Assembly: GCF_963676065.1 (NCBI RefSeq)
Contig: NZ_OY780933.1
Span: 992,001-1,056,000 of the forward strand
Direction of reading: 5' to 3'
Origin: Maridesulfovibrio sp.
Lineage (GTDB): Bacteria; Desulfobacterota; Desulfovibrionia; Desulfovibrionales; Desulfovibrionaceae
Length of the DNA stretch: 64,000 bases
A model generated the notes under the pieces. That model was not told the DNA's origin. It did no database searches and saw only the letters and a program-made list of their open reading frames with translations. Position 1 is the stretch's first letter; each line of letters begins with the position of its first letter. The position numbers were made by a program, and so were the translations under genes. Below, piece by piece: positions 17,720 to 41,549 of this stretch.

Positions 17720-18766
17720 GTGAGCGTCTTTATAGTGAAAGATATTTCGTCCATTAATCCCAAAAAAATTCTTGTATGCCAGCTGCGTCAGATTGGGGAT
17801 GTTGTGCTAGCTACGCCTTCTGTTTCTCTGCTCCATCGTAGATTCCCTAATGCTGAGATCCATATCCTTACAGAAGATAAATGCACACAGGTTTTTGATA
17901 ATAATCCTGCTGTAAGCCGTGTCTGGGCCATCAAGAAAAAAGAATTGCGTAACCCAATTAAGGCCTTAAAATTTTATTGGAAAGTCGGGCGCTCCGGGTA
18001 TGATCTTATTGTCGATTTTCAGCAACTGCCACGCTGCCGCTGGGTTGTGCTGTTCAGTGACGCGCCTGTCAAACTTGCCGAAATGCCACCGTGGTATAAC
18101 CGCTGGTTGTATACCAACTGGCCTGAGTACATTCCCGGAGGTTATGCCGCCATGTACAAAGCTGGCGTTCTCAAACCGTTGGGAATTGAATGGAATCACG
18201 AACGTCCTATCATTTTCATTTCGGATGAAGAGCGTAATGAAGCAAAAGCCTGCCTTGGATCGCTGGGAGTAACAGAGGACGAGCCTTTGATCACCATTGA
18301 TGCCTCCCACAGAAGGCATACCCGCAAATGGCCGGAGGAGCATTACGGAAAATTGATCCGTTTAATTTCGGAGCAACGACCGCAGTTCAAATTTTTTCTG
18401 CTTTACGGTCCCGGTGAAAAAGACGTCGCATTAAATGTAATGAATGAATCCGGTGTTGCCGATAAGTGCGTGATACTGGAGAAACCAGGCTCATTACGAC
18501 TGATGGCTGCCTTGATTGAAAGGGCGGTTCTTCATATCGGCAATTGTTCCGCGCCGAGGCATTTTGCTGTTGCAGTGGGTACGCAGAGTATCGTTATGCC
18601 CGGTTCTTCCGGAAGCTGGGTTTTTCCTTCTCCCGAGCATGAGGAAGTGGTCGCCGGGCTTGAGTGCGAACCTTGCGGTAAAGAGGTCTGTGCCCGCAGT
18701 GATCTTGCCTGTTTGACCAAGGTTATGCCGGAAGATGTGCTTTTAAGGGTTTTAGACAGAGTGTAA
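17720..18766 (+). CDS. Glycosyltransferase family 9 (heptosyltransferase-like)
   Basis: A 348-residue GT-B enzyme of the ADP-heptose:LPS heptosyltransferase family. The N-terminal ILVCQLRQIGDVVLATPSV is the family signature (about 19-37), followed by FPNAEIHILTE. The C-terminal donor site has the ISNCSAPRHFAVAVG-like stretch (HIGNCSAPRHFAVAVGT) and a Cys-containing tail CEPCGKEVC. It probably adds a heptose or related sugar to a core oligosaccharide. The start GTG at 17720 has no clear Shine-Dalgarno; a second GTG at 17735 is possible. It is the first gene of the plus-strand run that continues with the intramembrane protease, gspD, gspE, OST and glycoprotein. Confidence 0.8.
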   Translation: MSVFIVKDISSINPKKILVCQLRQIGDVVLATPSVSLLHRRFPNAEIHILTEDKCTQVFDNNPAVSRVWAIKKKELRNPIKALKFYWKVGRSGYDLIVDFQQLPRCRWVVLFSDAPVKLAEMPPWYNRWLYTNWPEYIPGGYAAMYKAGVLKPLGIEWNHERPIIFISDEERNEAKACLGSLGVTEDEPLITIDASHRRHTRKWPEEHYGKLIRLISEQRPQFKFFLLYGPGEKDVALNVMNESGVADKCVILEKPGSLRLMAALIERAVLHIGNCSAPRHFAVAVGTQSIVMPGSSGSWVFPSPEHEEVVAGLECEPCGKEVCARSDLACLTKVMPEDVLLRVLDRV

Positions 18767-18843: not shown

Positions 18844-19296
18844 ATGGTTTATGATTTTATCGTAAACCGAATCTTGAAAGGGATTTGGTATCAGTTCAAA
18901 TGGGGGGCTATAAGTCTTACTGACCCCATTTTTTATTTGTTCCTTTCTTTGGGCTTCTTCGGCCTTTATGTCCCGGAACCGGATATTGAGCTTTCACTGG
19001 GGATCCTTTTTTTAAAAGCTCTGTTTGAAGAGTTCTTTTTCAGGTTTTTGCTGCAGGAGGGGCTAGACCGGCTTCTAAAGTACAGGTGGAAACTTGGACC
19101 TCTCAGTCTGGCCAACTTCTTAGCATCTTTGGCTTTTTCATGTATACACTTGATCCATCAGCCTGTTAACTGGGCTTTGCTCACTTTTTTCCCCTCGCTT
19201 GCTTTCGGATATATATGGCAAAGATATCGTAGCCTCGTTTCGGTTACAATTCTCCACTTTGCCTACAACGCGTTTTTGTTTTATCAGTTCATGTAG
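18844..19296 (+). CDS. CPBP-family glutamic intramembrane protease, MrtJ/myxosortase-like
   Basis: A membrane protein of about 150 residues with four or so helices. The three CPBP motifs are all visible: EExxxR as EEFFFR at residues 62-67, FSCIH in ASLAFSCIHLIH, and HxxxN in ILHFAYNAF. Small CPBP proteases encoded beside proteins with Cys-containing C-terminal sorting tails are known in the JDVT-CTERM, Synerg-CTERM and MYXO-CTERM systems. A protein with such a tail lies 6 kb downstream in the same direction (25229-27340), so it is the likely substrate. A TTG reading from 18790 would add 18 residues without a ribosome binding site; I prefer the ATG at 18844. The substrate pairing is inference. 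Confidence 0.75.
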   Translation: MVYDFIVNRILKGIWYQFKWGAISLTDPIFYLFLSLGFFGLYVPEPDIELSLGILFLKALFEEFFFRFLLQEGLDRLLKYRWKLGPLSLANFLASLAFSCIHLIHQPVNWALLTFFPSLAFGYIWQRYRSLVSVTILHFAYNAFLFYQFM

Positions 19297-19335
19297 TCCT
19301 GCATAGAGGAAAGCTTGACGGGCTTTAACAAGTGT

Positions 19336-19395
19336 AGGATGTTTAAAGGCATCCTTTTGATCATATAATTCAAATCGTCAACTGGGTTGTTGACG
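19336..19395. promoter_or_regulatory. Two small hairpins in the leader between the protease gene and gspD
   Basis: AGGATG/CATCCT (19336-19355) is followed by TTTTGA and could be a weak terminator. CGTCAAC/GTTGACG (19376-19395) with a TGGGTT loop follows 20 bases on. The gap to gspD is 147 bases, so gspD may have its own promoter or an attenuated read-through; no clear -35/-10 pair is seen. Confidence 0.35.
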
Positions 19396-19443
19396 GTTCT
19401 TTCGTAGATAAAATGATTCTTACCGGGAACTCCGGCGGAGCTT

Positions 19444-21462
19444 ATGGCGCTGAATATGCTGAAGAATTTTTGTAAATTTGTTGCGGTTGTGGTTTTGGTG
19501 CTGGTTCTCACGGCCCCTGTGGCTATGGCCCAGCCCGAAGGCGGCGAAGGTGTTCATGCTAATTTGGAGAGCATTTCTCTTGTAGAATTTATCAAATTCG
19601 TCGGGCGCTATACCGGTAGAAATATCGTGTTTCAAAAAGGAGCGTTGCCGAGCTCTCATGTCAGTATTTACGCTGGACAATCACTTACCGAACCTGAACT
19701 TATGGCTGTGTTTCAGCAGGTTTTGACCGGAGCTGGATTTCACGCCGTAACAAGAGATAATGTTACTTATGTTTTGCCGTTGCGCGATGCCAAATTAATT
19801 TCCCCAGATATAAAATCTACTCCTTCGAATGGTGATCAGGAAGAAATTATTACTTCTGTGTTTCAGCTTGATGGTAAAATGGATCCTGCAAAAGTACAGA
19901 CTGTCCTAGCGCAAGTGGCATCACAGATAGGTAAGGTTACTTCGGTGCCTATGGCTGATGCGGTTTTGGTTCGTGACTTACAGGGCAATGTGAATAAGAT
20001 GAAAAAGTTGCTGGCAATTCTGGGAAAAGCCGGTGCCAAGCAGGAAACTAAGTTGATTGAGCTGGAAAAGACCAGTGCTAAAACCGTTGCTGCCAAGTTG
20101 TCTTCTTTTTATAAAAAATTATCCTCTTCCGGAAAAACCGGAACGCCTCCAATAATTGAGGCCCTGGAATGGGCCAACAGTATGCTTGTTTCAGGATCAA
20201 GGGATCAGATTGAAACGATCAGTAACCTCGTTTCTAATCTTGACCGCTCTAATGATTCATATTCTAAAATGAAAATTTACCGGTTGCACAACATTGAAGC
20301 TATTGTTGCCGGTGATGTGCTACAGAGCCTTGTGTCCGGGGGAGGCATCTCTTCCACTGGAGCGTCCAAAGGAGCAGAGACAGGAACAAAGTCAAGTTCA
20401 GGTAAGGGTACTGCATCACAATCTAAATTGGGCTCCGGAGACACTGGCGATGTGCAGGTTTCTGCCGATCAGACAACTAATACTCTGATTGTTATGGCTC
20501 CAACTGATCAATTGCCTCAGATTGATAAGTTGGTAGACCAGTTGGATCAGGCACAGGATCAGGTTTATATTGAAGCACTTGTCCTCGAAACCTCACTGGA
20601 CAATTCAAAGGAATTCGGAGTTGAATGGCAGGGTGGTATTGACATGGGAGGAAGTGTAGCGACTTTGGGGTACACCAAAACTTCAAATAGTAAGTTATCT
20701 ACATATGCATCTAATCCTTCCAGTGTGCCGGGCGGTTATTCCATGGGGGTCCTGGGGGATACGATCTCCTATGCAGGAAAGAGTTTCCCCACTATAGGGG
20801 CTTTGGTCAATTTTACAAAAGGAGCTACTGACTTTAACCTTATTTCTGCTCCCCAGATCATGACGCTGGATAATGCAGAAGCAGAAATTTTTGTTGGACA
20901 GAATCGGCCTTATAAATCTGGTGAAAGTTCAACCAGCGGAGATGCTCTTGTTTCGACTTATTCTTATAAGGATGTCGGGATCAAACTCAAAATTACTCCT
21001 AGAATCAATCGCGAAGACGGATTGGTCAAGCTCAAGGTTTATCAGACATACAATACTGTTTCCGAGGCAAGCACAAACGAATTGCCAATTACTAATGATC
21101 GTACAACCGATACGACCGTCCTTCTTGCTGATGGTTCTACTATGGTCATTGGCGGTTTGATCCGCTCAGAACAGACCCGATCTGAGTCGGGAGTCCCATA
21201 TCTTTCTGATTTGCCTTTATTGGGTTGGCTTTTTAAAACCACCAGTGACAGCGGTAAAAAGAATACTCTGATGGTTTTTATCTCAGCGCGCATTATTCAA
21301 ACTACCGAACAGCTTGAAGCTTTAAGTAAGGCAAAAATGGACAAGTACCGCAAGCAGCGGAAGCGGTTTGAAACATTTATTGATCAGGAATTCAATACAT
21401 ATAAAAACGATTCTGAAGGATCAGATGCAAACAATGTTACTTCTGCCGCTTCTGACGGTTAA
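19444..21462 (+). CDS. gspD: Type II secretion system secretin GspD
   Basis: A 672-residue outer-membrane channel. A signal peptide is present (about 1-29, hydrophobic run ending APVAMA). N0/N1 domains follow (LESISLVEFIKFVGRYTGRN at about 42-61), then N2-N3 with a Ser/Gly-rich insert near 310-330. The secretin core is VYIEALVLETSLDNSKEFGV and, near the end, DGSTMVIGGLIRSEQTRSES with SGVPYLSDLPLLGWLFK. The GGAG just upstream supports the ATG. gspE starts 12 bases after its stop, then the OST. No pseudopilin or gspF, L or M gene is in the window, so it must work with components encoded elsewhere or in a reduced machine. Confidence 0.92.
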   Translation: MALNMLKNFCKFVAVVVLVLVLTAPVAMAQPEGGEGVHANLESISLVEFIKFVGRYTGRNIVFQKGALPSSHVSIYAGQSLTEPELMAVFQQVLTGAGFHAVTRDNVTYVLPLRDAKLISPDIKSTPSNGDQEEIITSVFQLDGKMDPAKVQTVLAQVASQIGKVTSVPMADAVLVRDLQGNVNKMKKLLAILGKAGAKQETKLIELEKTSAKTVAAKLSSFYKKLSSSGKTGTPPIIEALEWANSMLVSGSRDQIETISNLVSNLDRSNDSYSKMKIYRLHNIEAIVAGDVLQSLVSGGGISSTGASKGAETGTKSSSGKGTASQSKLGSGDTGDVQVSADQTTNTLIVMAPTDQLPQIDKLVDQLDQAQDQVYIEALVLETSLDNSKEFGVEWQGGIDMGGSVATLGYTKTSNSKLSTYASNPSSVPGGYSMGVLGDTISYAGKSFPTIGALVNFTKGATDFNLISAPQIMTLDNAEAEIFVGQNRPYKSGESSTSGDALVSTYSYKDVGIKLKITPRINREDGLVKLKVYQTYNTVSEASTNELPITNDRTTDTTVLLADGSTMVIGGLIRSEQTRSESGVPYLSDLPLLGWLFKTTSDSGKKNTLMVFISARIIQTTEQLEALSKAKMDKYRKQRKRFETFIDQEFNTYKNDSEGSDANNVTSAASDG

Positions 21463-21474
21463 TAGGGGTACCAA

Positions 21475-22956
21475 TTGAGTTCTTCCTATGATTTGAATCT
21501 AGTTCCGCAAAATGTTGTAGACCTTTTCCTGACCTTTCCGCAGCGGAATGAATTTATTCCTGTGGAAGTGCAGGACAAGGAAATTAAATTTCTCCTGCAG
21601 AACGAAAGCTCACTGCCTATGGCCGACTTTCTGGCCTGGAAGTTGGGCAAAAATGTTGTTTCTGAAATTGTTCCCGAGGAAGAGTTTTTTCCTTTGCTTG
21701 AACAGGCTTTGACTGTCTGGGAAGAAGAGAGTGCTATCGAGTCAGACTCTGATGAAGATGATGCCGAAGACGGGCAGGATTTGCTTGGCTGGTCTCATGA
21801 TGATGCCCCCATTGTCCGGCTGGTGAATAAAACTCTGCATCAGGCCATATCCAACGGAGCCAGTGATATTCATTTTGAAGGGCAGGGCAACGGTTTTGTT
21901 GTCCGCTACCGGCAGGACGGAGTGCTGAAAGCAGTCAAGCGTTTGGATAAAGGGCTGCAGCCAACAGTAATCGCCCGTATTAAAGTCATGGGTGAAATGG
22001 ATGTAGCCGAGAGCCGCAAACCCCAGGACGGACGTATTTTTCTTAAACTCGGGCAGAAAGAAGTTGATGTCCGTGTTTCCACAATTCCGACCATGAGCGG
22101 TGAAAAAGCCGTTCTGCGTGTTCTGGACCGTTCTAAAAATATTTTAAATCTCGAGGATCTTGGGCTTAAAGGTCCCGATCTGGAACTTTTCAGAAAGGTT
22201 CTTGCTCAGCCTCATGGCATCGTACTTGTTACCGGGCCGACCGGTTCTGGTAAAACCACAAGCCTTTATGCCGGGCTCAGTGAACTCCCACGCGACGACA
22301 AAAATATTGTCACAGTGGAAGATCCTGTGGAATATCAGCTTTCCGGGATTAATCAGGTTCAGGTCAACAAGGCCGCCGGGATGACTTTTGCAACCACCAT
22401 CCGGTCCTTCCTTAGGCAGGACCCGGATATTATTCTTGTAGGTGAGATTCGAGATCAGGAAACTGCAAGTACGGCAGTTCAAGCATCGCTTACCGGTCAC
22501 CTTGTGCTTTCTACCTTGCATACCAATGATGCTGCCACCGCCGTAACCAGAATGCTTGATATGGGCATCGAACCGTTTCTGCTGGCATCTTCCCTTTCCC
22601 TTGTGCTCGGTCAGAGACTTGTTCGTGTTAATTGTAAGCATTGCTCAAGGACGATTGATGTTTCCGAAAATACCCATAAGCTTTTCGAAGAGATCAATGA
22701 CTTGCCTGCTCAGCAGTTAGCAGGAGCCGGTTGTGAGCATTGCAACTTTACCGGATTCAGCGGTCGCCGTGGAGTTTATGAACTCATACCGGTAACAGAA
22801 GACATGCGCGGTATGATCATGGAGGTCGCCTCTTCCGACCGGATCAAGGCTTACGCGAAGGAAATGGGCCGTGAAACAATGGTTGATCACGGCGTTCGGC
22901 TGGTCAAAGAAGGTGTGACGACTCTCGAAGAAGTTATCAGGGTCACCAAGCTTTAA
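21475..22956 (+). CDS. gspE: Type II secretion ATPase GspE
   Basis: A 493-residue cytoplasmic ATPase that drives pseudopilus assembly. The N-terminal N1E-like domain (1-110) ends in an acidic stretch (ESDSDEDDAEDGQD). The RecA-like core has Walker A GPTGSGKTT (254-262), the Asp box, Walker B DPDIILVGEIRD (about 316-327), and the His box with STLHTND. The GspE-type zinc motif has Cys387, Cys390, Cys420 and Cys423. Translation begins at a TTG (21475) after AGGGGT, which gives the conserved start MSSSYDLN and a 12-base gap from gspD. The TTG may keep expression low relative to gspD. Confidence 0.93.
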   Translation: MSSSYDLNLVPQNVVDLFLTFPQRNEFIPVEVQDKEIKFLLQNESSLPMADFLAWKLGKNVVSEIVPEEEFFPLLEQALTVWEEESAIESDSDEDDAEDGQDLLGWSHDDAPIVRLVNKTLHQAISNGASDIHFEGQGNGFVVRYRQDGVLKAVKRLDKGLQPTVIARIKVMGEMDVAESRKPQDGRIFLKLGQKEVDVRVSTIPTMSGEKAVLRVLDRSKNILNLEDLGLKGPDLELFRKVLAQPHGIVLVTGPTGSGKTTSLYAGLSELPRDDKNIVTVEDPVEYQLSGINQVQVNKAAGMTFATTIRSFLRQDPDIILVGEIRDQETASTAVQASLTGHLVLSTLHTNDAATAVTRMLDMGIEPFLLASSLSLVLGQRLVRVNCKHCSRTIDVSENTHKLFEEINDLPAQQLAGAGCEHCNFTGFSGRRGVYELIPVTEDMRGMIMEVASSDRIKAYAKEMGRETMVDHGVRLVKEGVTTLEEVIRVTKL

Positions 22957-22997
22957 ATCAAATATCTTTCACTCAAATACTTATAGGTGTACCAATA

Positions 22998-25112
22998 ATG
23001 AATACTCATGATGAACTGCGCAACCCAAATTGGTTTTCCGATTGGAAAACTCTTTTTTTATTTGCACTTTTTTCGTTTGTTGTTGCCTTCGGATTGCGTC
23101 TTTTGGAGTTACCCAAGTGGAATAACCAGGCTTATATGGTCAATGGTGAATTCATTATGGGTACACATGATGCTTACTATTGGCTCGCCGGAGCAAAAGG
23201 TATAGGCAGCGCTGTAGGAAAACCAATAGTTAACATCCTAAAATTAATAGGAAGTATCACTGGGTGTCAGTACGGAAATATTGCATTTTGGTTGCCTGCC
23301 GTTTTTTCCGGTTTAACTGCGGTTGCCGCTTTCGCCTGGGGTGGACTGGTTGGAGGTAACTGGGTCGGCTTATGTTCAGCTGTTTTTGCTACATCTATTC
23401 CAGCATTTTATTTCAGAACAAGGCTCTCTTATTATGATACTGATATTGTGACTCTACTTTTTCCTCTGCTTATTACATTTTTACTTGCACTGTTTATTCA
23501 AAGGGGGATTTATTCTACATGGCTTAAGCGTTCTGCTTTCTCTTATAAAAGTTCAAGGTGGGAATTGTTCTTGCCGTTGCTGGCAGGAGCAGTAGCATCG
23601 TATGGTGTATTATGGCATGCGGATATGCAGCTGTTCGCTCTGGTTTCTTTGCTGCTGGGGTCTTTTTTAGTTTTAGCGGTAGGTTCCTCAGAAAGTCGCC
23701 CTGAATTGCTGAGAGGTATGCTGATCTACGCTATTTCCGCTTTTTTCGGAGCATGGGGGATTCCCGTTGCGTTCCTGGTCTTGTTTACATTGAAGTCTCC
23801 TAAAGTTCAGGAACATAAGCTTTATAAGAATATTTTTGTTTATATTGTAGCCATCTGTGGCGTGTTCTTATTGAGTGGTGCGGGGCAGAATCTCGGTGTT
23901 ATTGTGATGAAAAAAATCGCTGTGTACCTCAAACCTACAGCAGATGTCTCACATATTCAGAACGGGCCTGTTTATCCTGGAATTGCGCAAAGTGTTATTG
24001 AGGCGCAGAATTTGAGCCTAAGTGTTTTGTTCAGCCAGATGATAGGCAACACAACTCTGGGGTGGATTTGTACTGCTTCAGTTGTATATTTTTTTGCCTC
24101 TAGACCTTATTCTATGCTGCTTTTACCTTTTGTTTTAGCAACATTTGCATCAGTTTATATAGGTGGTCGTTTCGCTATGTTTGGTGGGACAGTCTTTGGG
24201 CTTTCTTTTGCTGTTCTTTTACAAGACGTGCTGAATAAGATTTTTAAACTTGAAAAGAGTCGGTATAAAAGAGTTATTCATGCTGCGGCTGGAATAACAG
24301 TACTCGGATCTTTACTTTGTAATACGGTTCCAATGTATCGGGAATATGCGATTACCCCAATTATGAGCCAGCAGCACGTCAAAGCCCTGATTGAGGCTGG
24401 TAAGCATATGCCAAAAGACAGTACTGTTTGGACATGGTGGGATTGGGGATATGCAACTATGTATTATGCCGGCGTGAATACTTTAGCTAACGGCGGAAAT
24501 CATGCTGGAAAAGTTTTGTTTCCTCTAAGTTTGGCTTACACTACTCCTTCCTATCTGCAATCCAGCCAGATGATTAAATTCAGCGCCGCAAACAAGGGAA
24601 ACCCGTGGACTGAGTTGAATAAGCTTTCAGTTTTGCAGGCGCAGGAATTTATTAAATCTTTGGGCGTAAAGAAATATCAATTCAAAAAGGCACCTAAACA
24701 GTATCTTGTAACTTGCTGGGAGAATATAAAGCTTGCATATTGGATTATGTACTACGGAACCTGGGATCTCCGAAAAAAGGGTATTCATCCAATAGTTCAG
24801 GGGGTTAACAATGCATTCACCTTTGATGCTGAAAACGGTGTTTTTCGCCAGAATGGAAGGCCTCCCATTAAAGTTTCTGGTTATGAATATTTGAGCTCAA
24901 AGCAATCTGGAAGATCTCGTTTTGATCTTAATGCCGGTCCGAATCTTGTGTATAATGCTGATAGTAAACAGGCTTATTTGATGGACGACCTCGTCGCTAA
25001 CAGTGTAATGTTTAAGCTATTGACCGTGGGGCCTAGCGATGCGAGGTTGAACAACCATTTCCGCATCGTTTATGACGGTTTTCCCTTCATACGAATATAC
25101 GAGGTCATTTAG
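22998..25112 (+). CDS. pglB: STT3/PglB-type oligosaccharyltransferase
   Basis: A 704-residue membrane enzyme that transfers a lipid-linked glycan to asparagine in N-x-S/T sequons on the periplasmic side. About a dozen helices occupy residues 15-455, then a soluble periplasmic domain. The catalytic acidic sites are visible: GTHDAYYW near 55 and SYYDTDIV near 145. The loop EL5 motif SVIE (E335) matches PglB TIxE. WWDWGY is at 480-485, a variant of WWDYG. In C. jejuni PglB an Arg 12 residues after the TIxE Glu reads the acidic -2 residue; here the aligned residue is Gln347. This predicts a relaxed sequon. AGGTG precedes the ATG; the gene follows gspE by 41 bases. Confidence 0.92.
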   Translation: MNTHDELRNPNWFSDWKTLFLFALFSFVVAFGLRLLELPKWNNQAYMVNGEFIMGTHDAYYWLAGAKGIGSAVGKPIVNILKLIGSITGCQYGNIAFWLPAVFSGLTAVAAFAWGGLVGGNWVGLCSAVFATSIPAFYFRTRLSYYDTDIVTLLFPLLITFLLALFIQRGIYSTWLKRSAFSYKSSRWELFLPLLAGAVASYGVLWHADMQLFALVSLLLGSFLVLAVGSSESRPELLRGMLIYAISAFFGAWGIPVAFLVLFTLKSPKVQEHKLYKNIFVYIVAICGVFLLSGAGQNLGVIVMKKIAVYLKPTADVSHIQNGPVYPGIAQSVIEAQNLSLSVLFSQMIGNTTLGWICTASVVYFFASRPYSMLLLPFVLATFASVYIGGRFAMFGGTVFGLSFAVLLQDVLNKIFKLEKSRYKRVIHAAAGITVLGSLLCNTVPMYREYAITPIMSQQHVKALIEAGKHMPKDSTVWTWWDWGYATMYYAGVNTLANGGNHAGKVLFPLSLAYTTPSYLQSSQMIKFSAANKGNPWTELNKLSVLQAQEFIKSLGVKKYQFKKAPKQYLVTCWENIKLAYWIMYYGTWDLRKKGIHPIVQGVNNAFTFDAENGVFRQNGRPPIKVSGYEYLSSKQSGRSRFDLNAGPNLVYNADSKQAYLMDDLVANSVMFKLLTVGPSDARLNNHFRIVYDGFPFIRIYEVI

Positions 25113-25155
25113 TTTCGATAAATGTCTTGTCAGGTTTATTTTTTTTTTGTATTAA

Positions 25156-25199
25156 AAAAGTGATCGCTGGTGACATTGGGTTGCTAGTGGTCGCTTTTA
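25156..25199 (+). terminator. Hairpin between the OST and the glycoprotein gene
   Basis: AAAAGTGATCGCTGG can pair along its whole 15-base length with CTAGTGGTCGCTTTT, using several G-U pairs, and is followed by ATTTACC. It lies in the 116-base gap before a strong AAGGAG ribosome binding site. It may be a terminator for the OST transcript, or an attenuator separating moderate OST expression from high expression of the glycoprotein. Confidence 0.5.
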
Positions 25200-25228
25200 T
25201 TTACCTTAAGCCCTAAGGAGATCTTTTC

Positions 25229-27340
25229 ATGAAAAAGATTACAGGTCTTACAGTAATCGCGCTCATGCTTCTTTGCAGCAGTGCTTTTGCTTCAAATTCA
25301 CCGACCATGCCGTGGACATTGAACTCCACTTGGAACATGGATGGTAATGGTGTAACCAACGTAGCTGCGAATACCCCTAAATTTTTTACAGGATTTTTCG
25401 CAAACGCTTCCTACTCCAATACAGCATCAGACTTCTTGAATGCTACTTTTATGTTCATGAACTCTTCCAAGACTTACGTAATGAGTCAGGATGATTTCTC
25501 TGCCTCTACTAACCAGGGTGGTAACGCAACCGTTTGGGGGTACTTTGGTTTTTTCAACTCAACCGACGCAGCAACCATTGCTGCTAACGTAGGTTGGGTT
25601 TCCATGCAGACAAACAGCACACCCGCTTCTGCTGCTTTGGGTAACGCAACTTCTCTGAGTATCAGCGAAGGTGCATACAATAACCTGAACGGTCTCGTGA
25701 CCCTTGGTATGGTTAACGGTTCTACCGCTGGTAAAGGTAATACGCAGCTTGGTCCTATCCGCATGGCCTCCACTTCCGGCGGTGCCCTGCTCGCAGGTGT
25801 TGGACAGAACACGCCTAACCCGTCTTCTACCGCTGCCGTCGAAATAGCTACGGGTACTTCCCTGATCATGGCTTACGAAAATGGTACCTTCCAGAACACT
25901 ACTGCTGTTTGGGGGTCTAACTGGGATTACTATGCAACAGGTTATAACTACGATACCTACGTGCCCTATTATATCATTGGTCAGGTTAAACTGATTGAAG
26001 CTTATTCCGCTACTACTGGATATAATGCTAAAGCTAAATTCAAAGTATTCAGCGGTCTTGATGATTCTGTAATTCTTGATCGTTCCGACGATTGGTACAG
26101 ATATAACGCTACTGTAAGCACTACCGCTGACTATGGTCGCTTCAATCTTACCGCAGACTTCCCTCTGCTTGAAGGTGCGACTCTGAATAAAGACCGCAAC
26201 TTGGCTACTGGCTCTGTTTACAAAAATAAAGCTCAGGCCAGACACTTTGCTGTTATGATTAAGTCCGGTACCACAATGAGTTCTAATGACCTCAAAGGCC
26301 GCAGCTACAAACTGGTTTATGCTGGTTTCGGTGGTGGCGCCAAGTCTGCTCGCAACGCAACTCAGGGTATCCTCGGTTTCGGTCTTAATGACGATCTCCT
26401 CGCTAAAGGCCACGGTGGTTACGTAATCTCCGGTGCTGATGCAGCTGGAACCGTCGTTCCCACAAACCCCGATTCCTTTGAATTCGCAATTGCTGACACT
26501 AACCAGTTCGCTTCTATGACCCAGTCTAACATGACTATCAAGAACGCCGCTGGTACCCTCGTTGGTACTGCTTACTTCAAGCAGTCTGCAGAAAAAGACT
26601 ACGCTGTTGGTATCTATCAGCCTGTACGTAGTGGTGCTGCTAATGGTGCAAACCTTGTTATCATGATCCCCGACACCGCTGATATTGGTGTACCTAACTC
26701 TGCTGATCCTCAGTTTCAGCATAACGCAACTATCGAAACTGCAGCTCCTGTAGGTTTTGCATATCGCAGAAACGCAACTGTTTCTGCTTTCTCTACCAAG
26801 AAAGATATGAGAGATCAGTGGACTGCTCTGCCTTCTGATTTCACACCTATCTCCGGGCTGATCGGTTTTAACGCTACTTCTGTACGCTTAGGTGCTCAGA
26901 AGGGTGATCTTCTGTACACTGTACAGATTCCTTTCTCCGGTGTTGGTTACAAAATTGATGATCTGGCACTCTACAAAGTGTTCCCTACCGTTGCAAAGAC
27001 TGTTAAGTCTTTTCAGTATGCATCCTCTGATGACAGTGGTAAGAACGCAGAAGGTGCTTGGTGGATTTCTCAGGAAATCGGTGATGGTTACCTCGGAGTT
27101 GACTCTTACCTCTCTCCTGGAACCACTTACTACCTGAACTACGTTATTAAAGATAACGGTGAATATGACTACCGCGCTGCTGATAACAACGACATCGGTG
27201 ACCCTGTTGTCCTCGGTACCATGGATTCATCCTCCAGCTCCTCCGGTTGTGTATTCAACCCCGCAGCTGGCTTCGGTCTGGAATGGCTGCTGCTGATGCT
27301 TGCTCCCATGGTTGCTATCGTACGTAGCCGTTTTAAGTAG
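25229..27340 (+). CDS. Exported, sequon-rich surface glycoprotein with JDVT-type C-terminal sorting tail
   Basis: A 703-residue protein with a signal peptide (cleavage near SSAFA, residue 21). It has 18 N-x-S/T sequons at N32, 59, 71, 78, 99, 110, 129, 139, 163, 218, 223, 293, 306, 376, 434, 499, 515 and 548; 15 have Thr, and none has Asp/Glu at -2. The tail is a Ser run, then SGCVFNPAAGFGLEW, a hydrophobic helix and RSRFK; Cys674 is the only Cys in the mature chain. The rest is rich in Gly, Ala, Asn, Thr and Ser with no enzyme motif. A strong AAGGAG, a clean codon pattern and a perfect terminator suggest high expression. An S-layer-like role is inference. Confidence 0.85.
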   Translation: MKKITGLTVIALMLLCSSAFASNSPTMPWTLNSTWNMDGNGVTNVAANTPKFFTGFFANASYSNTASDFLNATFMFMNSSKTYVMSQDDFSASTNQGGNATVWGYFGFFNSTDAATIAANVGWVSMQTNSTPASAALGNATSLSISEGAYNNLNGLVTLGMVNGSTAGKGNTQLGPIRMASTSGGALLAGVGQNTPNPSSTAAVEIATGTSLIMAYENGTFQNTTAVWGSNWDYYATGYNYDTYVPYYIIGQVKLIEAYSATTGYNAKAKFKVFSGLDDSVILDRSDDWYRYNATVSTTADYGRFNLTADFPLLEGATLNKDRNLATGSVYKNKAQARHFAVMIKSGTTMSSNDLKGRSYKLVYAGFGGGAKSARNATQGILGFGLNDDLLAKGHGGYVISGADAAGTVVPTNPDSFEFAIADTNQFASMTQSNMTIKNAAGTLVGTAYFKQSAEKDYAVGIYQPVRSGAANGANLVIMIPDTADIGVPNSADPQFQHNATIETAAPVGFAYRRNATVSAFSTKKDMRDQWTALPSDFTPISGLIGFNATSVRLGAQKGDLLYTVQIPFSGVGYKIDDLALYKVFPTVAKTVKSFQYASSDDSGKNAEGAWWISQEIGDGYLGVDSYLSPGTTYYLNYVIKDNGEYDYRAADNNDIGDPVVLGTMDSSSSSSGCVFNPAAGFGLEWLLLMLAPMVAIVRSRFK

Positions 27341-27380: not shown

Positions 27381-27412
27381 AAGGGAGTCGGCCTTGGCCG
27401 ACTCCCTTTTTT
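27381..27412 (+). terminator. Strong intrinsic terminator after the surface glycoprotein gene
   Basis: AAGGGAGTCGGCC and GGCCGACTCCCTT form a perfect 13-bp stem (27381-27408) followed by a T-run. A diverged second copy of this terminator and its flank occurs at 32798, also shortly before a GT2 gene. Confidence 0.9.
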
Positions 27413-27924: not shown

Positions 27925-28461
27925 ATGGCAATTCCAACGACAGTGGTTATTCCGGCATACAATGACGCAATGGGACTTGATTATTTGCTGTCTGACCTTT
28001 TGGCTTTTACTGAAAAAAAGGGTTTGAAGGTTATTGTAGTGAATGATTGTTCGTCTGATAATACCAATGAAGTTTTGAAAAAATACGTCAGCAGAATTAA
28101 AGTTCTTGGTAATGAGACCAATCTTGGTTTCGGCGGTGCTTTTAAACGAGGTATTTGGGCTGCTGAAACCGAGTGGGTTGCTACGTTTGATACAGATAAG
28201 CAGCATAGAATTTCCGATTTAGAATCTCTGGCTGATCAGGCTGTAGACAAAGTTGATGCCGTCATTGGTATGAGGGATAGCGACTCTCATGTCACAAAGT
28301 CACGTGTTTCAGGTAAATGGATTCTCTCAAAAGCCGCAAATTTTATCACGGGCAGGAAAATTCCAGATATAAATTGTGGATTGAGAGTTTTTCGCCGTGG
28401 TGTGCTGCTTTATATTCTACTAGCACTCTGATCTGTTTGCATTAAAGTTGCCCAGTGTGTT
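27925..28461 (+). pseudogene. Broken copy of a GT2 polyprenyl-phosphate glycosyltransferase gene
   Basis: The first 160 residues closely match the intact gene at 32927 (for example VVNDCS, NLG(F/Y)GGA, HRISDLESLA, DSHVTKSRV, AANFITGRKIPDINCGLRV). After TATAT at 28415 about 31 bases present in the intact copy are missing. This shifts the frame, so the protein stops at 28431; the old frame continues as STSTLICLH and stops at 28445. The C-terminal membrane helices are lost. The DxD-type motif is DTDKQ, whereas the intact gene has DADGQ, so the copy has also drifted at the active site. It is almost certainly non-functional. Confidence 0.85.
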
Positions 28462-28779
28462 TTTTAATTAATCCATACAAGCATTAGCAACACATTGAAA
28501 TGCTATATAAAGTGGCTGATAGGCCTCTCCGTAATGAGCTTTAGATTCTTACTTTTTTCAACGCCATTAGAGGGTGTGAGCATAACTGAAGTCTGGATTA
28601 GTTAATTTAACGAAGGCTTCCGCATGGACCGGTGGTAAAAGGATCGCAGTCAAGAAGGACCAAAAAATTTACCCCAATAAAACCCTACTTGCAGATGGCA
28701 ATATCCTGTGGAGTTTTGTAATACAACAGTCAATGGTGACTGAAAAACCGAATCTGACATGTGTTAAGGAAGAACACTT
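28462..28779. other. Non-coding stretch after the GT2 pseudogene
   Basis: About 320 bases without a supported reading frame. Homology to the intact GT2 gene fades within the first tens of bases. I see no terminator, repeat or RNA gene. It may be decayed coding DNA. The next gene starts after GTTAAGGAAGAACACTT, which offers an AAGGAAG ribosome binding site. Confidence 0.4.
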
Positions 28780-30237
28780 ATGAATTTTTTTAGCAAAGCT
28801 CTCTATAGCGAAAAAACGACTATATTTTTGTCCTGTATTTATCCAGTTCTTTTTTTATATTCACAAAATACGAATGTGTACTCTCTGCAATCAGTAGCTG
28901 CATCCTTGCTGTTCATGGTTGCTATGGCCAGTGTGACGACACTTTTTCTCAACATATTCTGCAAAGTTTTTGGAAATAGAGTACTTATTTTTAGTGTTTC
29001 AAGCACTGTGTGCCTACTTTCACTTCTTTATTTTTCCATCCGCATTTTTTTCCCGAACACCTGGTCAGTACTACTTTTATATTGCGCCTTGGTTCTCTTT
29101 AGCACAGTGCTATGCATAAAATTTAAATTTTACTATTTAAATTCCTTCCTTGCTATTCTGTGTGCTCTTTCTTGCCTTATGATTGGAGGCAAACTTGGCA
29201 TGAACTCTGTGAATTCTGTCGAATTTTCAAAACACAATACAAATGTTGCTTTCATTCACAAACCAGATATTTTTATAATTCTTGCAGAATCGTACAACAG
29301 CTTTAGAGAACAGCAAAAAGAATATGGAATCGAAAATTCTAAACTAAAACAGTATCTTCAACAAAATAACTTTGAAATAGAAAATGCTTTTTCAAACTAT
29401 GACCATACGACAGCCAGTTCTCTAGCCATATTTTACATGCAGCATCATTATAATAAATTTCTTGAAGGAAATCATGATTTAACCGCACAGGGGAGAGGCT
29501 TATTAAATGGCAACACTTTGAATGCTGCGCTCGCCATTCTCAAAAAAAATAATTACTACACTTCATTTATTGATTGTGGAGGGTACCTTGTTAAGCAGAA
29601 AGGTGAACTTTACAACTACACACCTGCTAAAAATTTTTGGGGACACCTACCTAGTCCACTTGAAAAGCCTATGATTCCTATCAATATCATCCTCAAAAAA
29701 ATTCATATTTATATAAAATTCATGAATGACGTTGATACTACTGTCGCACTAAAAGATGCCATGAGTGCAAAACCTAATGATATGCCGGGGTTCTATTTTA
29801 TCAGAGAAGGCGCTGACCACGTAACATACGAAAAGACACCAGAGGTGTGGCGTAAGAATTACCGGGAACTGATCAAAGAGGGTGACAGGAAGATAATATC
29901 GCTTCTCAGATTGATTCAGGAAAAATCACCAGATTCAATTGTCGTTATTCTAGGTGACCACGGCGGAAAAATGTATCAGCTTAAAAAACTCAGCAAAGAT
30001 GATTTTATAAAAGATCTATACGAAGTCCTTTTTGCCGTAAAAATGCCTGTAAGTTTAAGTAAGCAAGGTAAGTGGAATGAGTATGCGAATACTGCCGTCA
30101 ATCTATTTCCTAAAATATTCAATATGCTTTCAGGAAATTCCTCTCTATTAGACGGGCTTGAGAAGAAAGCGCACAGCATTGATAGAAACGGAAAAGTCAT
30201 TGCTGTTGACGGCAATCCCGTTGACGTCAAGCCTTAA
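28780..30237 (+). CDS. Membrane-anchored sulfatase-fold enzyme (LTA synthase / phosphoethanolamine transferase type)
   Basis: A 485-residue protein. Four or five N-terminal membrane helices (about 13-140) are followed by an alkaline-phosphatase-superfamily domain outside the membrane. Metal and nucleophile positions are visible: Glu170 in FIILAESYNSF, the DHTTAS segment with Thr210/211 as probable nucleophile, an Asp-His in GADHVTYEK, and GDHGG with Asp393-His394. Such enzymes move phosphoglycerol or phosphoethanolamine onto sugars, or hydrolyse sulfate esters. The next genes are a tiny membrane protein and a NoeA-like methyltransferase; this trio may modify a surface polysaccharide with a phospho-substituent. 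The substrate is not predictable from sequence. Confidence 0.78.
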   Translation: MNFFSKALYSEKTTIFLSCIYPVLFLYSQNTNVYSLQSVAASLLFMVAMASVTTLFLNIFCKVFGNRVLIFSVSSTVCLLSLLYFSIRIFFPNTWSVLLLYCALVLFSTVLCIKFKFYYLNSFLAILCALSCLMIGGKLGMNSVNSVEFSKHNTNVAFIHKPDIFIILAESYNSFREQQKEYGIENSKLKQYLQQNNFEIENAFSNYDHTTASSLAIFYMQHHYNKFLEGNHDLTAQGRGLLNGNTLNAALAILKKNNYYTSFIDCGGYLVKQKGELYNYTPAKNFWGHLPSPLEKPMIPINIILKKIHIYIKFMNDVDTTVALKDAMSAKPNDMPGFYFIREGADHVTYEKTPEVWRKNYRELIKEGDRKIISLLRLIQEKSPDSIVVILGDHGGKMYQLKKLSKDDFIKDLYEVLFAVKMPVSLSKQGKWNEYANTAVNLFPKIFNMLSGNSSLLDGLEKKAHSIDRNGKVIAVDGNPVDVKP

Positions 30238-30943
30238 AGCTCGCTACGGATAAACTCGGACATTGCGCCTTCCCACTAACTGGGACTATTTAAAAGTAGG
30301 TATTTTCGGCAAACCGGCTTATTGTAGCCGTCAGGCTCTTGTCTTGAAGAAGTAAACTTACCACGAACAGATAGCCAGGCTGCGACAGGTACAAAGTCTG
30401 CTAAGTATGTCGCACGAAGGCTCGAACCTAGGATCTTAACGGCCCGGAAGATCAATTTCATCTTAGCGATGAATAGGTCGCCCATAGCACTCAATCACAG
30501 GCCTAGTCAGGTTGATTTAAACTTTGTAAATGATAATCCGTGCAGTGGCTGAGGAAGTGTAAGCACTAACTGTTGTCGATAATTTTAGCCGAGAGTGTAT
30601 ACTTGCTGGGCTTTAGATGTTTCAGAAGTTCATTCTAATACTGAAACATTACGTAAGGGATATAAGGAACTCCGTCCGTGATCCTTTAGGAAGATCAGCC
30701 GCCAAACGATTTTTCTCGCATAAAACATCCTCATATATGTATTAGGTCGTCATTGAGCCGGGGAAAGTTCGGTGCTCCGCACTTATGTGGTGCGCAAAAA
30801 GACTTGGCACCTGAGGCCTATGGTTTACATGCGATAAGTGGGCGGTTAAATTCCTATCGGACCTTTGTCCCTTCTTGACTTAACAGAGGATCAAGAATAT
30901 ACGAAAAATAATTTTTAACCTTCATATTAATATAGAGAGAGTT
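30238..30943. other. 700-base non-coding stretch
   Basis: No reading frame here looks like a gene: all are short and stop-rich on both strands, including a 72-codon minus-strand frame at 30276-30494 that has no ribosome binding site or family resemblance. I see no hairpin with a T-run. Base usage looks scrambled compared with the flanking genes. It is best read as decayed sequence or insertion debris; a structured RNA cannot be excluded by eye. Confidence 0.4.
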
Positions 30944-31156
30944 ATGTTTAAATATTTAAGGGTATTAGTGGTTCAGGTCTTCATATTATTCTTGTTTGTC
31001 GTGCCTACTACGGCCCATGCATATTTAGATCCTGGGACAGGTAGTCTGATTTTGCAGGCTTTAGCAGCTGGACTCGTAACTGCGCTTGCTTTTTGGGGGA
31101 AAATCGTAAGAAAATTCAAATCAATCATAAAAAAGTCCGATGAAAAAGATAGCTAG
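30944..31156 (+). CDS. Small membrane protein with YLDPGTGSLILQ motif
   Basis: A 70-residue protein. The N-terminus is a signal/anchor helix (about 5-22, ending TTAHA), followed at once by YLDPGTGSLILQ (27-38), a second helix (ALAAGLVTALAFWGKIV) and a basic tail (KKSDEKDS). I recognise this as a recurrent small family found beside extracellular polysaccharide and methyltransferase genes; its function is not known. The GAGAG before the ATG is a modest ribosome binding site. Its end overlaps the start of the downstream methyltransferase by 17 bases, which points to coupled translation and a shared role. Confidence 0.7.
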   Translation: MFKYLRVLVVQVFILFLFVVPTTAHAYLDPGTGSLILQALAAGLVTALAFWGKIVRKFKSIIKKSDEKDS

Positions 31157-32528
31157 CTCTTTTCGTGATCCAGATGGAAATGTTTTCATTGAAGATGATA
31201 CAATATACAGAACGGTAAGGAATTCATATCGCGCCAATTGGGAATTATGCGAATATTCCGGCCTTTACAATCTCTTGTCTAATGAGCAGCTACTCATTGA
31301 TTTTTCTGAAATTGATTCAGACGAGCACTACAAGCTTCTCAAAGTTAAGAAAATACCGTTCATCAGTTACCCTTATGAATGGTGTTTTTCACAACTCAAG
31401 GATGCAGCACGCACAACCCTTTCTATTCAAAAACTCTCCCTTGAAAAAGGCCTCACCCTCAAAGATAGCTCTGCTTATAATGTTCAATTTATCAATGGCA
31501 AACCTATATTCATAGACCTTCTTTCTTTTGAAAAAAGACCTGTCAATTCACCGTGGCAGGCTTATCGCCAATTTTGTATGCACTTTTATGCTCCACTAGT
31601 TTTAACAGCTAAAGTAGGGCTATGGTGCGGGCAATTATCAAAGCTCAACATTGATGGAGTTCCTCTCAGTTCAGCAGTAGAAATGCTGCCATTAAAATCT
31701 AAGCTCAATTTTCATGTCGGGTTACACTTAGTAGCCCACTCCAAAATGGAAGATAAATATTCAGATTCAATAAAATCAGCAGACAAAGCTATCTCTATAC
31801 AAATCTCGCCACAAAAAGCATTAAATCTTATTCAGTCATTAGAAAGTGCTATTGATGCACTAAGTCTTCCCAAAACGCAGACGACGTGGGGGGATTATTA
31901 TGATGACACAAATTATGCTGTGGATGCAATGTATAAGAAGGAAATGATTGTTCATGACTTTTCATCTATAGCCGCAAAAGATAATCATGGTAAGCTGGCT
32001 CTTGATTTTGGGGCGAATACCGGAAAATTTAGCGAACTCATCAGCGAACATTTCTCGAATGTTATTGCTACTGATATTGATCCACTAGCAGTAGAAAGAC
32101 ATTATCAAAAATTGCAAAAGAAAGGCCCTAATAATATTCTGCCTTTAATCATTGACTTCGCCAACCCCAGTCCGGCGCTTGGGTGGGCTTCAAAAGAAAG
32201 GGACAGCTTTAGTCAACGTTCAAGTTTCGGGTTTATTACTGCACTTGCTGTCATCCATCATCTCCGTATAACTAACGGAATCCCGCTTGAAATGCAGGCG
32301 GAGTACTTTTCTGATCTACTTGATGCGTCGGGATATTTATGTATTGAATTTGTACCAAAGGAAGACAGTCAAATAAGAAGGATGTTAGCTGTGCGTAGTG
32401 ATGTGTTCTATGACTATACGGAAAAAAATTTTCAGTCTTGTTTTGAGCAACACTTTGATTTTATAATGAAAAAGTCTGTCTCAGGATCATTGAGGACCAT
32501 ATATCTACTTAAGAAGAAACCTTTTTAA
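31140..32528 (+). CDS. SAM-dependent methyltransferase, NoeA-like
   Basis: A 462-residue protein. The N-terminal half begins SFRDPDGNVFIEDDTIYRTV, a pattern I associate with nodulation protein NoeA-related methyltransferases. It also contains segments like FISYPYEWCFSQLKDAARTT and DSSAYNVQFINGKPIFIDLL. The C-terminal half is a Rossmann methyltransferase with motif I LALDFGANTGKFSEL at about 286-300 and VIATDIDPLAVER after it. Such genes occur with the YLDPGTGS small protein and a sulfatase-fold enzyme. The acceptor is probably a surface polysaccharide or its precursor; NoeA itself modifies Nod factor. The name is a family resemblance, not a proven activity. Confidence 0.7.
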   Translation: MKKIASSFRDPDGNVFIEDDTIYRTVRNSYRANWELCEYSGLYNLLSNEQLLIDFSEIDSDEHYKLLKVKKIPFISYPYEWCFSQLKDAARTTLSIQKLSLEKGLTLKDSSAYNVQFINGKPIFIDLLSFEKRPVNSPWQAYRQFCMHFYAPLVLTAKVGLWCGQLSKLNIDGVPLSSAVEMLPLKSKLNFHVGLHLVAHSKMEDKYSDSIKSADKAISIQISPQKALNLIQSLESAIDALSLPKTQTTWGDYYDDTNYAVDAMYKKEMIVHDFSSIAAKDNHGKLALDFGANTGKFSELISEHFSNVIATDIDPLAVERHYQKLQKKGPNNILPLIIDFANPSPALGWASKERDSFSQRSSFGFITALAVIHHLRITNGIPLEMQAEYFSDLLDASGYLCIEFVPKEDSQIRRMLAVRSDVFYDYTEKNFQSCFEQHFDFIMKKSVSGSLRTIYLLKKKPF

Positions 32529-32926
32529 TAAGTCCTTGTCAGATCAAGATTTTACGCATTATTCTAAATAAAAATGGCTATCGACTTTAGTCCTAAAGTA
32601 CCAGAAGTGGCTATATGGATTGAAGTTGTCATGATTTTCAAGGCGATACTCTCTCCGTTTCACTACAAGATCAGACATCCTATATGCGGGGGCAGCCGTG
32701 ATAAGTGCCTGCACCCCGAGCCTGTATGGTTTCATTGAATTTATTTGATCACATCTCGTTTGGCTCTTCGGTCTCTAAATCTTGGATATAAGAGAATAAA
32801 GGGAGTCGGTCTTGGCCGGCTCCCTTTAATTATTATGATTGGAGTTGTTTGACTAAGGTGTACATTCGGTATAGAGAATTAAAGCATATTTTATAAATTT
32901 TAATATCAAAAAAACATAGAGTAGTT
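32529..32926. other. Intergenic stretch with duplicated terminator and GT2 leader
   Basis: About 400 bases with no supported gene. The first 250 bases show nothing recognisable. From about 32780 onward the sequence is a diverged copy of the region that follows the glycoprotein gene: (t)CTTGGAT, the GGGAGTCGG hairpin, then the GT2 leader with TTTGACTAAGGTGTA and ACATAGAGTAGTT. Confidence 0.5.
32798..32827. terminator. Second copy of the glycoprotein-gene terminator
   Basis: AAAGGGAGTCGGTC and GGCCGGCTCCCTTT form the same hairpin as at 27381 with compensating or wobble changes. The T-run after it is reduced to TTTAATTATT. It has no surface-protein gene ahead of it, so it is probably a duplicated relic. 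Confidence 0.7.
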
Positions 32927-33847
32927 ATGGCAATTTCAATGACAGTAGTTATACCGGCCTATAATGATGCTCAGGGGCTTGATTCAATGTTGTCTAGTCT
33001 TTTGGCTTGCACAGAAAGTAAGGGGTGGGAGGTAATCGTAGTTAATGATTGCTCACCTGATAATACCAATGAAATTTTGGGTAAATTTGCCGGTAGAATC
33101 AAAGTCATTGAGAATGAGGTTAATCTCGGGTACGGCGGTGCTCTCAAAAGAGGGATTCTAGCTGCTGAAACCGAGTGGGTTGCGACTGTTGATGCTGACG
33201 GTCAGCATAGAATTTCCGATTTAGAGTCCTTAGCAGGTCAGGCACATGGTAATGTCGATGCTGTTATCGGAGTTAGGGATAAAGATTCACATGTCACAAA
33301 GTCACGTGTCCCGGGGAAATTGGTTCTCTCAAAGGCAGCAAATTTCATCACTGGCCGAAAGATTCCAGATATCAATTGCGGACTGAGAGTACTGAGACGG
33401 GAAGTGATGCTGCATATCTTTTCTATTACATCAGATAAGTTTTCCTTTTCTACCAGTACGTTGATTTGCTTGCTCGCATTGAACTGTAATGTCGTTTATT
33501 CGCGCGTCGTTGTTGATGCAAGAATAGGAACAAGTGCAGTTAAACAGGTTAAGGATGGTCTTTATACCTTGATGCTAATGTTGCGTTTGATAACATTGTT
33601 TAAGCCTTTAAGAGTCTTCTTGCCTATTAGTTTGTTTCTCTTTTCTGTTGGTGCAATAAATCAGTTATATGTTTTTGTTGTTCATGGTTTGAATTTTACC
33701 ACGGCCACTGTTTTGTCTGGAATTGGCGGGTTAATAATATTTTTCATGGCATTGATTGCTGACCAGATTGCCGGGTTGCGGCGGGATATACTTTTTCAGT
33801 CTTTTAATATTAAGCGGTTGTCTTGCAATTCTACTCATAATGCATAG
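32927..33847 (+). CDS. GT2 glycosyltransferase, polyprenyl-phosphate sugar synthase type
   Basis: A 306-residue membrane-associated enzyme. The GT-A domain starts MTVVIPAYNDAQGLDSMLSS and carries the DxD motif as DAD (89-91) in VDADGQHR. The acceptor-loop segment SRVPGKLVLSKAANFITG is of the dolichol-phosphate mannose/glucose synthase kind. Two helices near the C-terminus (about 215-240 and 250-275) anchor it. It probably charges undecaprenyl phosphate with a sugar used by membrane glycosyltransferases such as that at 39672. It is the intact paralogue of the pseudogene at 27925. Only a weak GAG lies ahead of the ATG, as in the copy. Confidence 0.82.
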   Translation: MAISMTVVIPAYNDAQGLDSMLSSLLACTESKGWEVIVVNDCSPDNTNEILGKFAGRIKVIENEVNLGYGGALKRGILAAETEWVATVDADGQHRISDLESLAGQAHGNVDAVIGVRDKDSHVTKSRVPGKLVLSKAANFITGRKIPDINCGLRVLRREVMLHIFSITSDKFSFSTSTLICLLALNCNVVYSRVVVDARIGTSAVKQVKDGLYTLMLMLRLITLFKPLRVFLPISLFLFSVGAINQLYVFVVHGLNFTTATVLSGIGGLIIFFMALIADQIAGLRRDILFQSFNIKRLSCNSTHNA

Positions 33848-33909
33848 CGTGCACAACTTATGTATGGCTATTAAATGACAGAGTACACTGGTTTAAGGTT
33901 AATTGTTCC

Positions 33910-35241: not shown

Positions 35242-35262
35242 TTAATATGTGTGGCAATTGTT

Positions 35263-35811: not shown

Positions 35812-35857
35812 TGCAACTAATTCTGTTCCTCTTTAATGTTTAAGAAATGAGTTATGA

Positions 35858-36757: not shown

Positions 36758-36777
36758 AATCTCGTAGGTATTTCCCA

Positions 36778-39638: not shown

Positions 39639-39671
39639 CACAATCTTTTTTTTGATCTATATGAGTAAAAA

Positions 39672-41342: not shown

Positions 41343-41506
41343 CTTCTTTAGAGATAAAAGCATATAACGTAAACATCGGGTCGACCTCTGTCGTATGGGC
41401 TCAATCTTTCAATTTTAGTTTCAAACAAAATTGGCATTGACTTCACATCCAAAGAAAACGGTACTTGCCGTTGGCACTAACTTGTGCAGGTTTACAGATT
41501 AATATA

Positions 41507-41536
41507 AAAAGTCCTCGCCAAGTGGCGAGGACTTTT
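41507..41536. terminator. Terminator hairpin, left of the IS element
   Basis: AAAAGTCCTCGCC and GGCGAGGACTTTT form a perfect 13-bp stem around AAGT, with A and T runs on either side so it works in both directions. It ends the plus-strand island. A near-identical hairpin with the same AATATAAAAA lead occurs at 43047 on the other side of the IS element. Confidence 0.8.
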
Positions 41537-41549
41537 CAGATTGCTGACT

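Follow-up and report, generated by a model that had tools for sequence, protein, structure and literature searches.

Gene content and order of the locus

We analysed a window of 64,000 nucleotides from a Maridesulfovibrio genome, corresponding to positions 992001 to 1056000 of C1, the single contig of this 4.23 Mb genome. The window carries a run of genes encoding a MrtJ-type CPBP protease, the secretin and ATPase (gspD and gspE) of a type II secretion system (T2SS), an STT3/PglB-type oligosaccharyltransferase (OST) and a 703-residue exported protein, which we named SGP. These five genes had been picked out in an initial annotation of the same DNA, and their names, coordinates and placement on a single strand were all borne out. 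A gene for a GT9 glycosyltransferase opens the conserved run.

Using MrtJ as bait, we compared the locus across a genus set of 17 genomes, our own included. The mrtJ gene is present once in each of them, and the order GT9-mrtJ-gspD-gspE-STT3-SGP is kept in 15 of the 17 (own genome counted), so the conserved order that the initial annotation expected in relatives holds within the genus. On balance, we consider it probable that SGP is a major surface glycoprotein, coat-like or S-layer-like, built by a route that combines Sec, STT3, MrtJ and the T2SS. The observed basis for this route consists of the gene content, the conserved linkage, the selection acting on the sequons and tail of SGP, and its codon bias. 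The genes of the run are as follows.

17720..18766, + strand: GT9 heptosyltransferase-like glycosyltransferase (Pfam Glyco_transf_9), syntenic with mrtJ in 16 of the 17 genus genomes
18844..19296, + strand: mrtJ, MrtJ-type CPBP glutamic intramembrane protease (NF033192)
19444..21462, + strand: gspD, T2SS secretin (TIGR02517 passed)
21475..22956, + strand: gspE, T2SS ATPase, belonging to the MrtJ-associated GspE type (TIGR02533 best model)
22998..25112, + strand: STT3/PglB-type oligosaccharyltransferase (PF02516, PF21436)
25229..27340, + strand: SGP, predicted 703-residue exported N-x-T-rich surface protein, with 18 sequons and its sole conserved Cys in the tail

Sequons and codon use of SGP

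SGP matched no Pfam or NCBIfam family. It carries 18 N-x-S/T sequons (15 N-x-T and 3 N-x-S), exactly the count first reported, against 8.8 +/- 2.7 in shuffled sequences (p = 0.003). Its orthologs carry 16-26 sequons each, again mostly N-x-T, compared with about 10 in shuffles (p <= 0.02 for each). The conservation of these sites is more telling than their number. In an alignment with a mean distance of 58% and 70 invariant columns out of 887, there are nine columns at which 13 or more of the 15 SGP proteins have a sequon, and Asn retention in aligned pairs is 64% within sequons versus 31% outside them. In SGP itself, N59, N110, N218, N293, N376, N434 and N499 are among the conserved sequons. 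A, G, S and M predominate at the x position, and the -2 position shows enrichment of Q but none of D. The acceptance of sequons without an acidic residue at -2 has been described for three Desulfovibrio PglBs (PMC4894442), and the SGP sequons are in line with this relaxed -2 specificity. Across the 15 orthologs, the only conserved Cys is the one in the tail.

We scored codon adaptation against a reference of 12 ribosomal protein genes, themselves scored leave-one-out. SGP reaches 0.775, compared with 0.62-0.76 for the ribosomal protein genes and 0.43-0.69 for 30 other genes of the window, and it has the highest codon adaptation of the locus in 15 of 15 genomes. This is an indirect sign that SGP may be very highly expressed and the dominant surface protein; the very high expression asked of an S-layer protein is likewise seen here through codon adaptation, an indirect measure. 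A full-length AlphaFold2 model built with four sequences was unusable (mean predicted local distance difference test score, pLDDT, of 35.5), and the C-terminal 186 residues were predicted with a pLDDT of 60.6 as a beta domain followed by the tail helix. A PDB fold search with this C-terminal model gave weak immunoglobulin-like matches alone (best E 0.06).

Two further features lie on either side of the SGP gene, the first of which is a possible attenuator or processing site.

25156..25198, + strand: stem-loop between the STT3 and SGP genes (terminator-like scan, 19 pairs)
27381..27408, + strand: strong intrinsic terminator 3' of the SGP gene (12 pairs, 8 of them G-C, then a T run)

The oligosaccharyltransferase and the glycan island

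The OST scores above cut-off for both Pfam STT3 (PF02516) and STT3-PglB_core (PF21436), and by profile comparison it matches C. lari PglB (5ogl) along its full length with an E of 2.9e-39. The motifs GTHD, YYDTD, SVIEAQ (the EAQ loop) and WWDWG are present, and the acidic residues of the metal site are kept. The protein fails the Campylobacter-type PglB equivalog NF050801, with 80.4 bits against a cut-off of 1300. An OST match at C1:53.7 kb (L002, L118), considered as a second STT3, was left uncounted, being short, partial and right at the cut-off.

Within the genus, mean distances are 49% for STT3 and 58% for SGP, and 11% for gspE. The STT3 and SGP distances correlate given the GspD distance (partial Mantel r=0.37, p=0.005), which suggests joint exchange or co-evolution of the two; shared recombination may also contribute, and we do not treat this correlation as main evidence.

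Downstream of the run lies a large set of glycan genes.

27925..63701, no strand assigned: glycan biosynthesis island (Pfam), extending to about C1:1069 kb and parting the two halves of the T2SS
59125..60843, - strand: predicted PglK-type ABC flippase for lipid-linked glycan (NF050066 best model)

By Pfam, the island contains GT2, GT4, methyltransferase, DegT-type aminotransferase, NeuB, PseB-like, KAS III-like and other genes, together with a WbpM/PglF-like dehydratase and a NeuD/PglD-type acetyltransferase, the latter above cut-off. The best model for its ABC transporter is NF050066 PglK (555.8 bits, E 9e-167), below the equivalog cut-off of 1000. In all 15 genus genomes that allowed the comparison, this PglK-type flippase gene falls within the mrtJ-gspC interval. 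Two KAS III (FabH-like) genes were seen in the window, one upstream of the conserved run (15686-16660) and one within the island (45306-46277).

Sequon-rich stretches were also observed in other proteins. The STT3 of genome G065 (L124:3951-6311) has a sequon-rich C-terminal tail, NGTAANATQPTNGTESGENTTQPANTTQ, and is perhaps self-glycosylated there. In our own genome, a pilus- or conjugation-like cluster encodes a 249-residue exported protein with NAT repeat runs, NATNAANATTPANATSAMTQANATNATANSIVANAT (L111:11223-11972; C1:1342.2-1343.0 kb), which is probably another OST target.

MrtJ and the C-terminal tag

The CPBP protein passes the MrtJ model NF033192 (82.1 bits, cut-off 75). Its open reading frame opens at TTG 18790, and since the orthologs start at the position matching ATG 18844, this ATG is more likely the true start. 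The catalytic residues EExxxR, FxxxH and HxxxN, which in the numbering of the reading frame are E80, E81 and R85, F116 and H120, and H156 and N160, are invariant in the 17 genus MrtJ proteins. MrtJ would be expected to cleave Cys-containing C-terminal tags, and SGP ends in a tail of this kind.

26879..27217, + strand: pre-tag domain of SGP, roughly residues 551-663 (blastp against the other tagged proteins)
27245..27337, + strand: C-terminal sorting tag of SGP, with GC, a hydrophobic helix and a basic end (tag hidden Markov model; predicted helix; codon analysis)
27248-27250, + strand: codon of Cys674 of SGP

The tail, GCVFNPAAGFGLEWLLLMLAPMVAIVRSRFK, is nearly invariant as protein in the genus. 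Over all pairs, its codons show 649 synonymous versus 156 non-synonymous differences, and because these are mostly synonymous, selection keeps the tail. The many synonymous differences rule out recent gene conversion or copying of the tail. The meaning first attached to the sequons and the tail Cys is supported to the extent that both are under selection, as seen in the sequon columns and in the synonymous tail codons.

The tag follows the pattern GCxxNPxxxFxxEW, with an invariant Cys, a hydrophobic helix, a basic end and MrtJ in the genome. A search with the tail profile yielded five tagged proteins in our own genome and 2-10 per genome in the 17 genomes of the genus, the weakest of which may be due to chance. 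SGP is the best match in nearly every genus genome. With four more proteins bearing the same tail in one genome and several matches in every other, the idea of a system dedicated to one substrate had to be given up. The other four are two beta-propellers, one subtilase and one protein of no assigned kind; they are encoded elsewhere in the genome, are not sequon-enriched and have ordinary codon use. The N-termini of the tagged proteins are Sec-like, judged by eye. Because the other four are not sequon-rich, the tail-processing route appears to be general and the glycosylation pressure to be aimed at SGP.

SGP and three of the other four tagged proteins have the pre-tag domain in common (blastp E 1e-12 to 1e-28). 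This domain (window 26879-27217; L112, L113, L115, L116) spans about 120-190 residues with the motif KDNGxYD...DPVxLG and belongs to no Pfam family; it is a candidate recognition or spacer domain. We also observed a two-gene insertion element twice in our own genome (L112:1486-2720 and L140:2875-4109), one copy being near a tagged-protein gene.

The tail could instead be an uncleaved transmembrane anchor, or be cut so as to release SGP to the medium, with a Cys that is not lipidated. The failure to find an acyltransferase favours this possibility, as do the Vibrio rhombosortase substrates, which can be released, and TraA, part of which is shed (PMC11980579). We nevertheless regard it as quite improbable, given the single conserved Cys, the strong purifying selection on the tag, a MrtJ that is above the equivalog cut-off with its catalytic residues kept, and the demonstration that cleavage by the related MrtX depends on the Cys (PMC11980579).

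The T2SS genes are complete and split by the island

GspD passes TIGR02517 with 422.8 bits (cut-off 351.35) and is 68-80% identical within the genus. GspE, 85-94% identical within the genus, has TIGR02533 as its best model with 564 bits, below the cut-off of 630. The genes gspC and gspF and, on the opposite strand, gspG-gspL lie at C1:1069.8-1079 kb, 55 kb from the gspD and gspE of the window. This cluster contains no gspD or gspE, and the pair in the window can accordingly be read as the D and E that it lacks. Our genome thus holds GspD, GspE, GspC, GspF, GspG and minor pseudopilins, with GspE, GspF, GspC and GspK assigned by best model at scores below the equivalog cut-offs. The initial annotation had built a T2SS around this GspD/GspE; the two alone make no T2SS, but the remaining parts exist 55 kb away, and a lone incomplete T2SS behind gspDE is ruled out.

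In 15 genus genomes, our own among them, mrtJ and a GspC ortholog (78-89% identity) share a contig at a separation of 48-90 kb; in G009, the sixteenth, the ortholog lies on a different contig from mrtJ. The island splits the T2SS in each of the 15 genus genomes that could be tested. Elsewhere in our genome, a 425-residue exported protein with N-x-T sites (L109:7022-8299; C1:441.0-442.3 kb) adjoins a second secretion cluster with its own secretin, GspE-like and GspF-like genes.

Two genomes of the genus depart from this order. In G010, mrtJ-gspD-gspE are in place, the only STT3 is 300 kb away and SGP is gone; the relocated STT3 adjoins a 1226-residue protein with the same Cys tail and a codon adaptation of 0.846, still higher than that of SGP, a neighbourhood that counts in favour of the route proposed below. 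The unit is therefore separable, because G010 keeps mrtJ-gspD-gspE without a local STT3 and SGP. In G001, mrtJ and STT3 stand side by side and only weak tag matches were found. A 1281-residue protein of G001 with an OmpA-like end (L168:7753-11598) has 30 sequons versus 9 expected.

G010 bears on whether SGP, if glycosylated and processed by MrtJ, takes another route or stays periplasmic, while the T2SS serves the subtilase and the propellers. This genome keeps the T2SS genes and other tagged proteins without SGP, and bulky glycans could burden the secretin. However, SGP ranks first among the tag matches in almost all genomes of the genus and abuts the T2SS operon in two genera, and a periplasmic protein with such codon bias, divergence and sequon load would be unusual. 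A separate route for SGP is thus unlikely in our judgement.

Linkage and co-occurrence outside the genus

In genome G038, a single strand carries an SGP ortholog, a transposase-like open reading frame and gspC-D-E-F-STT3-response regulator-histidine kinase. This ortholog has 684 residues, 28 sequons and the same tail, and is encoded just upstream of gspC. A C10-peptidase-family protein encoded beside this T2SS-STT3 operon (L160:6927-10001) has 37 sequons versus 16 expected. In G039 the order is gspD-E-F-STT3-response regulator, with mrtJ about 6 kb from STT3. In our own genome gspF and gspC precede the same response regulator and histidine kinase as in the G038 operon, and gspC-D-E-F-STT3-response regulator-histidine kinase is for this reason the likely ancestral order.

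In G038, G039, G042, G054, G096, G106, G108 and G190, mrtJ is located within a group of T2SS genes or next to one, and in G107 its neighbours are pseudopilin-like genes, which brings the total to about nine genera. To count co-occurrence, we required E<=1e-18 for MrtJ and at least some 760 bits for the GspE type, to which one fragment of equal score density was added. Among 118 relatives, 28 have both MrtJ and this GspE type, 2 the GspE only, 6 MrtJ only and 82 neither (Fisher 5e-19); outside the genus the corresponding numbers are 12, 2, 5 and 82 (Fisher p=4e-10), both p-values overstating independence since the genomes are related. The tie between STT3 and the T2SS is limited to our own genus, G038, G039 and perhaps G042. 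STT3 genes beside GspE-like genes in G024, G064 and G101 accompany a different GspE type and were not counted. Beyond the genus, the proposed linkage is supported by the STT3 inside the T2SS operon of G038 and G039 and by MrtJ accompanying T2SS genes in about nine genera; within the genus, G010 shows the unit separated. As far as linkage is concerned, the case is stronger than the initial annotation could have shown.

These data also weigh on the idea that STT3 and SGP are merely genes of a hypervariable glycan island inserted in a T2SS locus, the T2SS genes being its uncoupled borders. Such hitch-hiking is favoured by the presence in all genomes of an island, some 48-90 kb long, that separates the T2SS halves, by the divergence of STT3 (49%) and SGP (58%) far beyond that of gspE (11%), and by the separation of STT3 and SGP from gspDE in G010. 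We still find it improbable, because in G038 and G039 STT3 is part of a T2SS operon, with gspF on one side and the response regulator on the other, SGP bears the tag presumably recognised by the T2SS-linked MrtJ, and the linkage and co-occurrence of MrtJ and T2SS hold in distant families.

A proposed assembly route for SGP

We infer the glycosylation, cleavage, lipidation, T2SS transit and surface location of SGP, and the order of the steps, as follows. Sec would export SGP, and the C-terminal helix would hold it in the inner membrane, where STT3 would add N-glycans synthesised by enzymes of the island and brought across the membrane by the PglK-type flippase. The tail Cys would then be modified, probably by lipidation, and MrtJ would cut off the tail helix. 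SGP would pass through a T2SS made of the adjoining D and E and of C, F and G-L encoded 55 kb away, and stay on the outer surface via its C-terminal anchor. At least four other tagged proteins would take the same tail route without sequon richness. The conserved linkage within the genus, together with its partial recurrence elsewhere, points to a single line that assembles a sugar-coated layer on the cell surface.

Several observations weigh against this route. No acyltransferase for the tail Cys was identified. The curated JDVT-CTERM model (NF033191) leaves the SGP tail unscored and gives the four sibling tails 10-21 bits (maximum 20.8, cut-off 27), for which reason we regard the tag as a JDVT-CTERM-like variant and not, by this test, a member; it does look similar to GCSLNRNVNFSPTLLLMF (L173), a classic JDVT tail found next to MrtJ in G325. 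In G010, the tagged protein beside STT3 has 13 sequons versus 12.2 expected and so is not enriched, and in G001 no GspD, GspE or GspC of the genus T2SS type was found. No T2SS gene was seen near MrtJ in genus g48, G031, G083, G213 and G325. Finally, STT3 occurs in 80 of the 118 genomes, is far commoner than the triad and so is not specific to it.

Relation to known systems and significance

The closest known systems are JDVT-CTERM/MrtJ and MYXO-CTERM/MrtX, which likewise pair a CPBP glutamic protease of the same equivalog with Cys-helix-basic tails and many substrates per protease. According to one report (PMC11980579), the tail Cys is needed for cleavage in the MrtX system, lipidation by an unknown acyltransferase has been proposed there, and surface display of MYXO-CTERM proteins in Myxococcus needs the T2SS. 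Unlike in these systems, mrtJ here is found within the T2SS operon or next to it and tends to be present where one GspE type is, the JDVT-CTERM model fails to recognise the tag, and the main substrate is presumably N-glycosylated.

The T2SS itself resembles the canonical GspC-M system in its D and E, with GspD, a GspF-like protein, GspG and minor pseudopilins; it differs from the usual T2SS in that an N-OST gene stands in the operon in other genera and that, in the genus, a glycan island carrying a flippase divides it. With the Campylobacter Pgl system and Desulfovibrio PglB the locus shares the STT3/PglB fold and motifs, a PglK-type flippase, and PglD-, PglE- and PglF-like genes nearby. In contrast to a stand-alone pgl operon, its STT3 is tied to a T2SS and to one dominant acceptor, and is far from the NCBIfam PglB equivalog.

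GlyGly-CTERM/rhombosortase also joins a C-terminal tag, an intramembrane protease and the T2SS in one route. Rhombosortase, however, is a rhomboid serine protease, and its authors looked for a T2SS subclass marked by it and found none (PMC3237569), whereas MrtJ here marks one GspE type, with exceptions. The O-OTase PglL of Vibrio cholerae influences T2SS output; it is O-linked and broad on periplasmic proteins, and the accessible part of that report describes no gene linkage or tagged substrate (PMC6901666). Our reading of the literature turned up neither an N-OST gene located within a T2SS operon nor a sortase-like protease marking one T2SS type. Each module is known, and their conserved genetic union is apparently undescribed.

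Our best reading is that anchoring of the JDVT/MYXO-CTERM type has been fused genetically to T2SS and N-glycosylation and builds an abundant, fast-evolving glycoprotein coat. It is an evenly balanced proposition that a T2SS subclass marked by MrtJ displays Cys-anchored proteins and, in Desulfovibrionaceae, gained its own N-OST and glycan supply for a hypervariable coat. If true, the locus would provide gene-linkage evidence that myxosortase-type processing and the T2SS form one pathway outside Myxococcota, and the T2SS may carry heavily N-glycosylated cargo. It would also offer a compact locus for testing the acyltransferase and the order of steps, and the dominant surface protein of a sulfate-reducer-like genus would have been predicted from sequence, together with its sites and its mature end.

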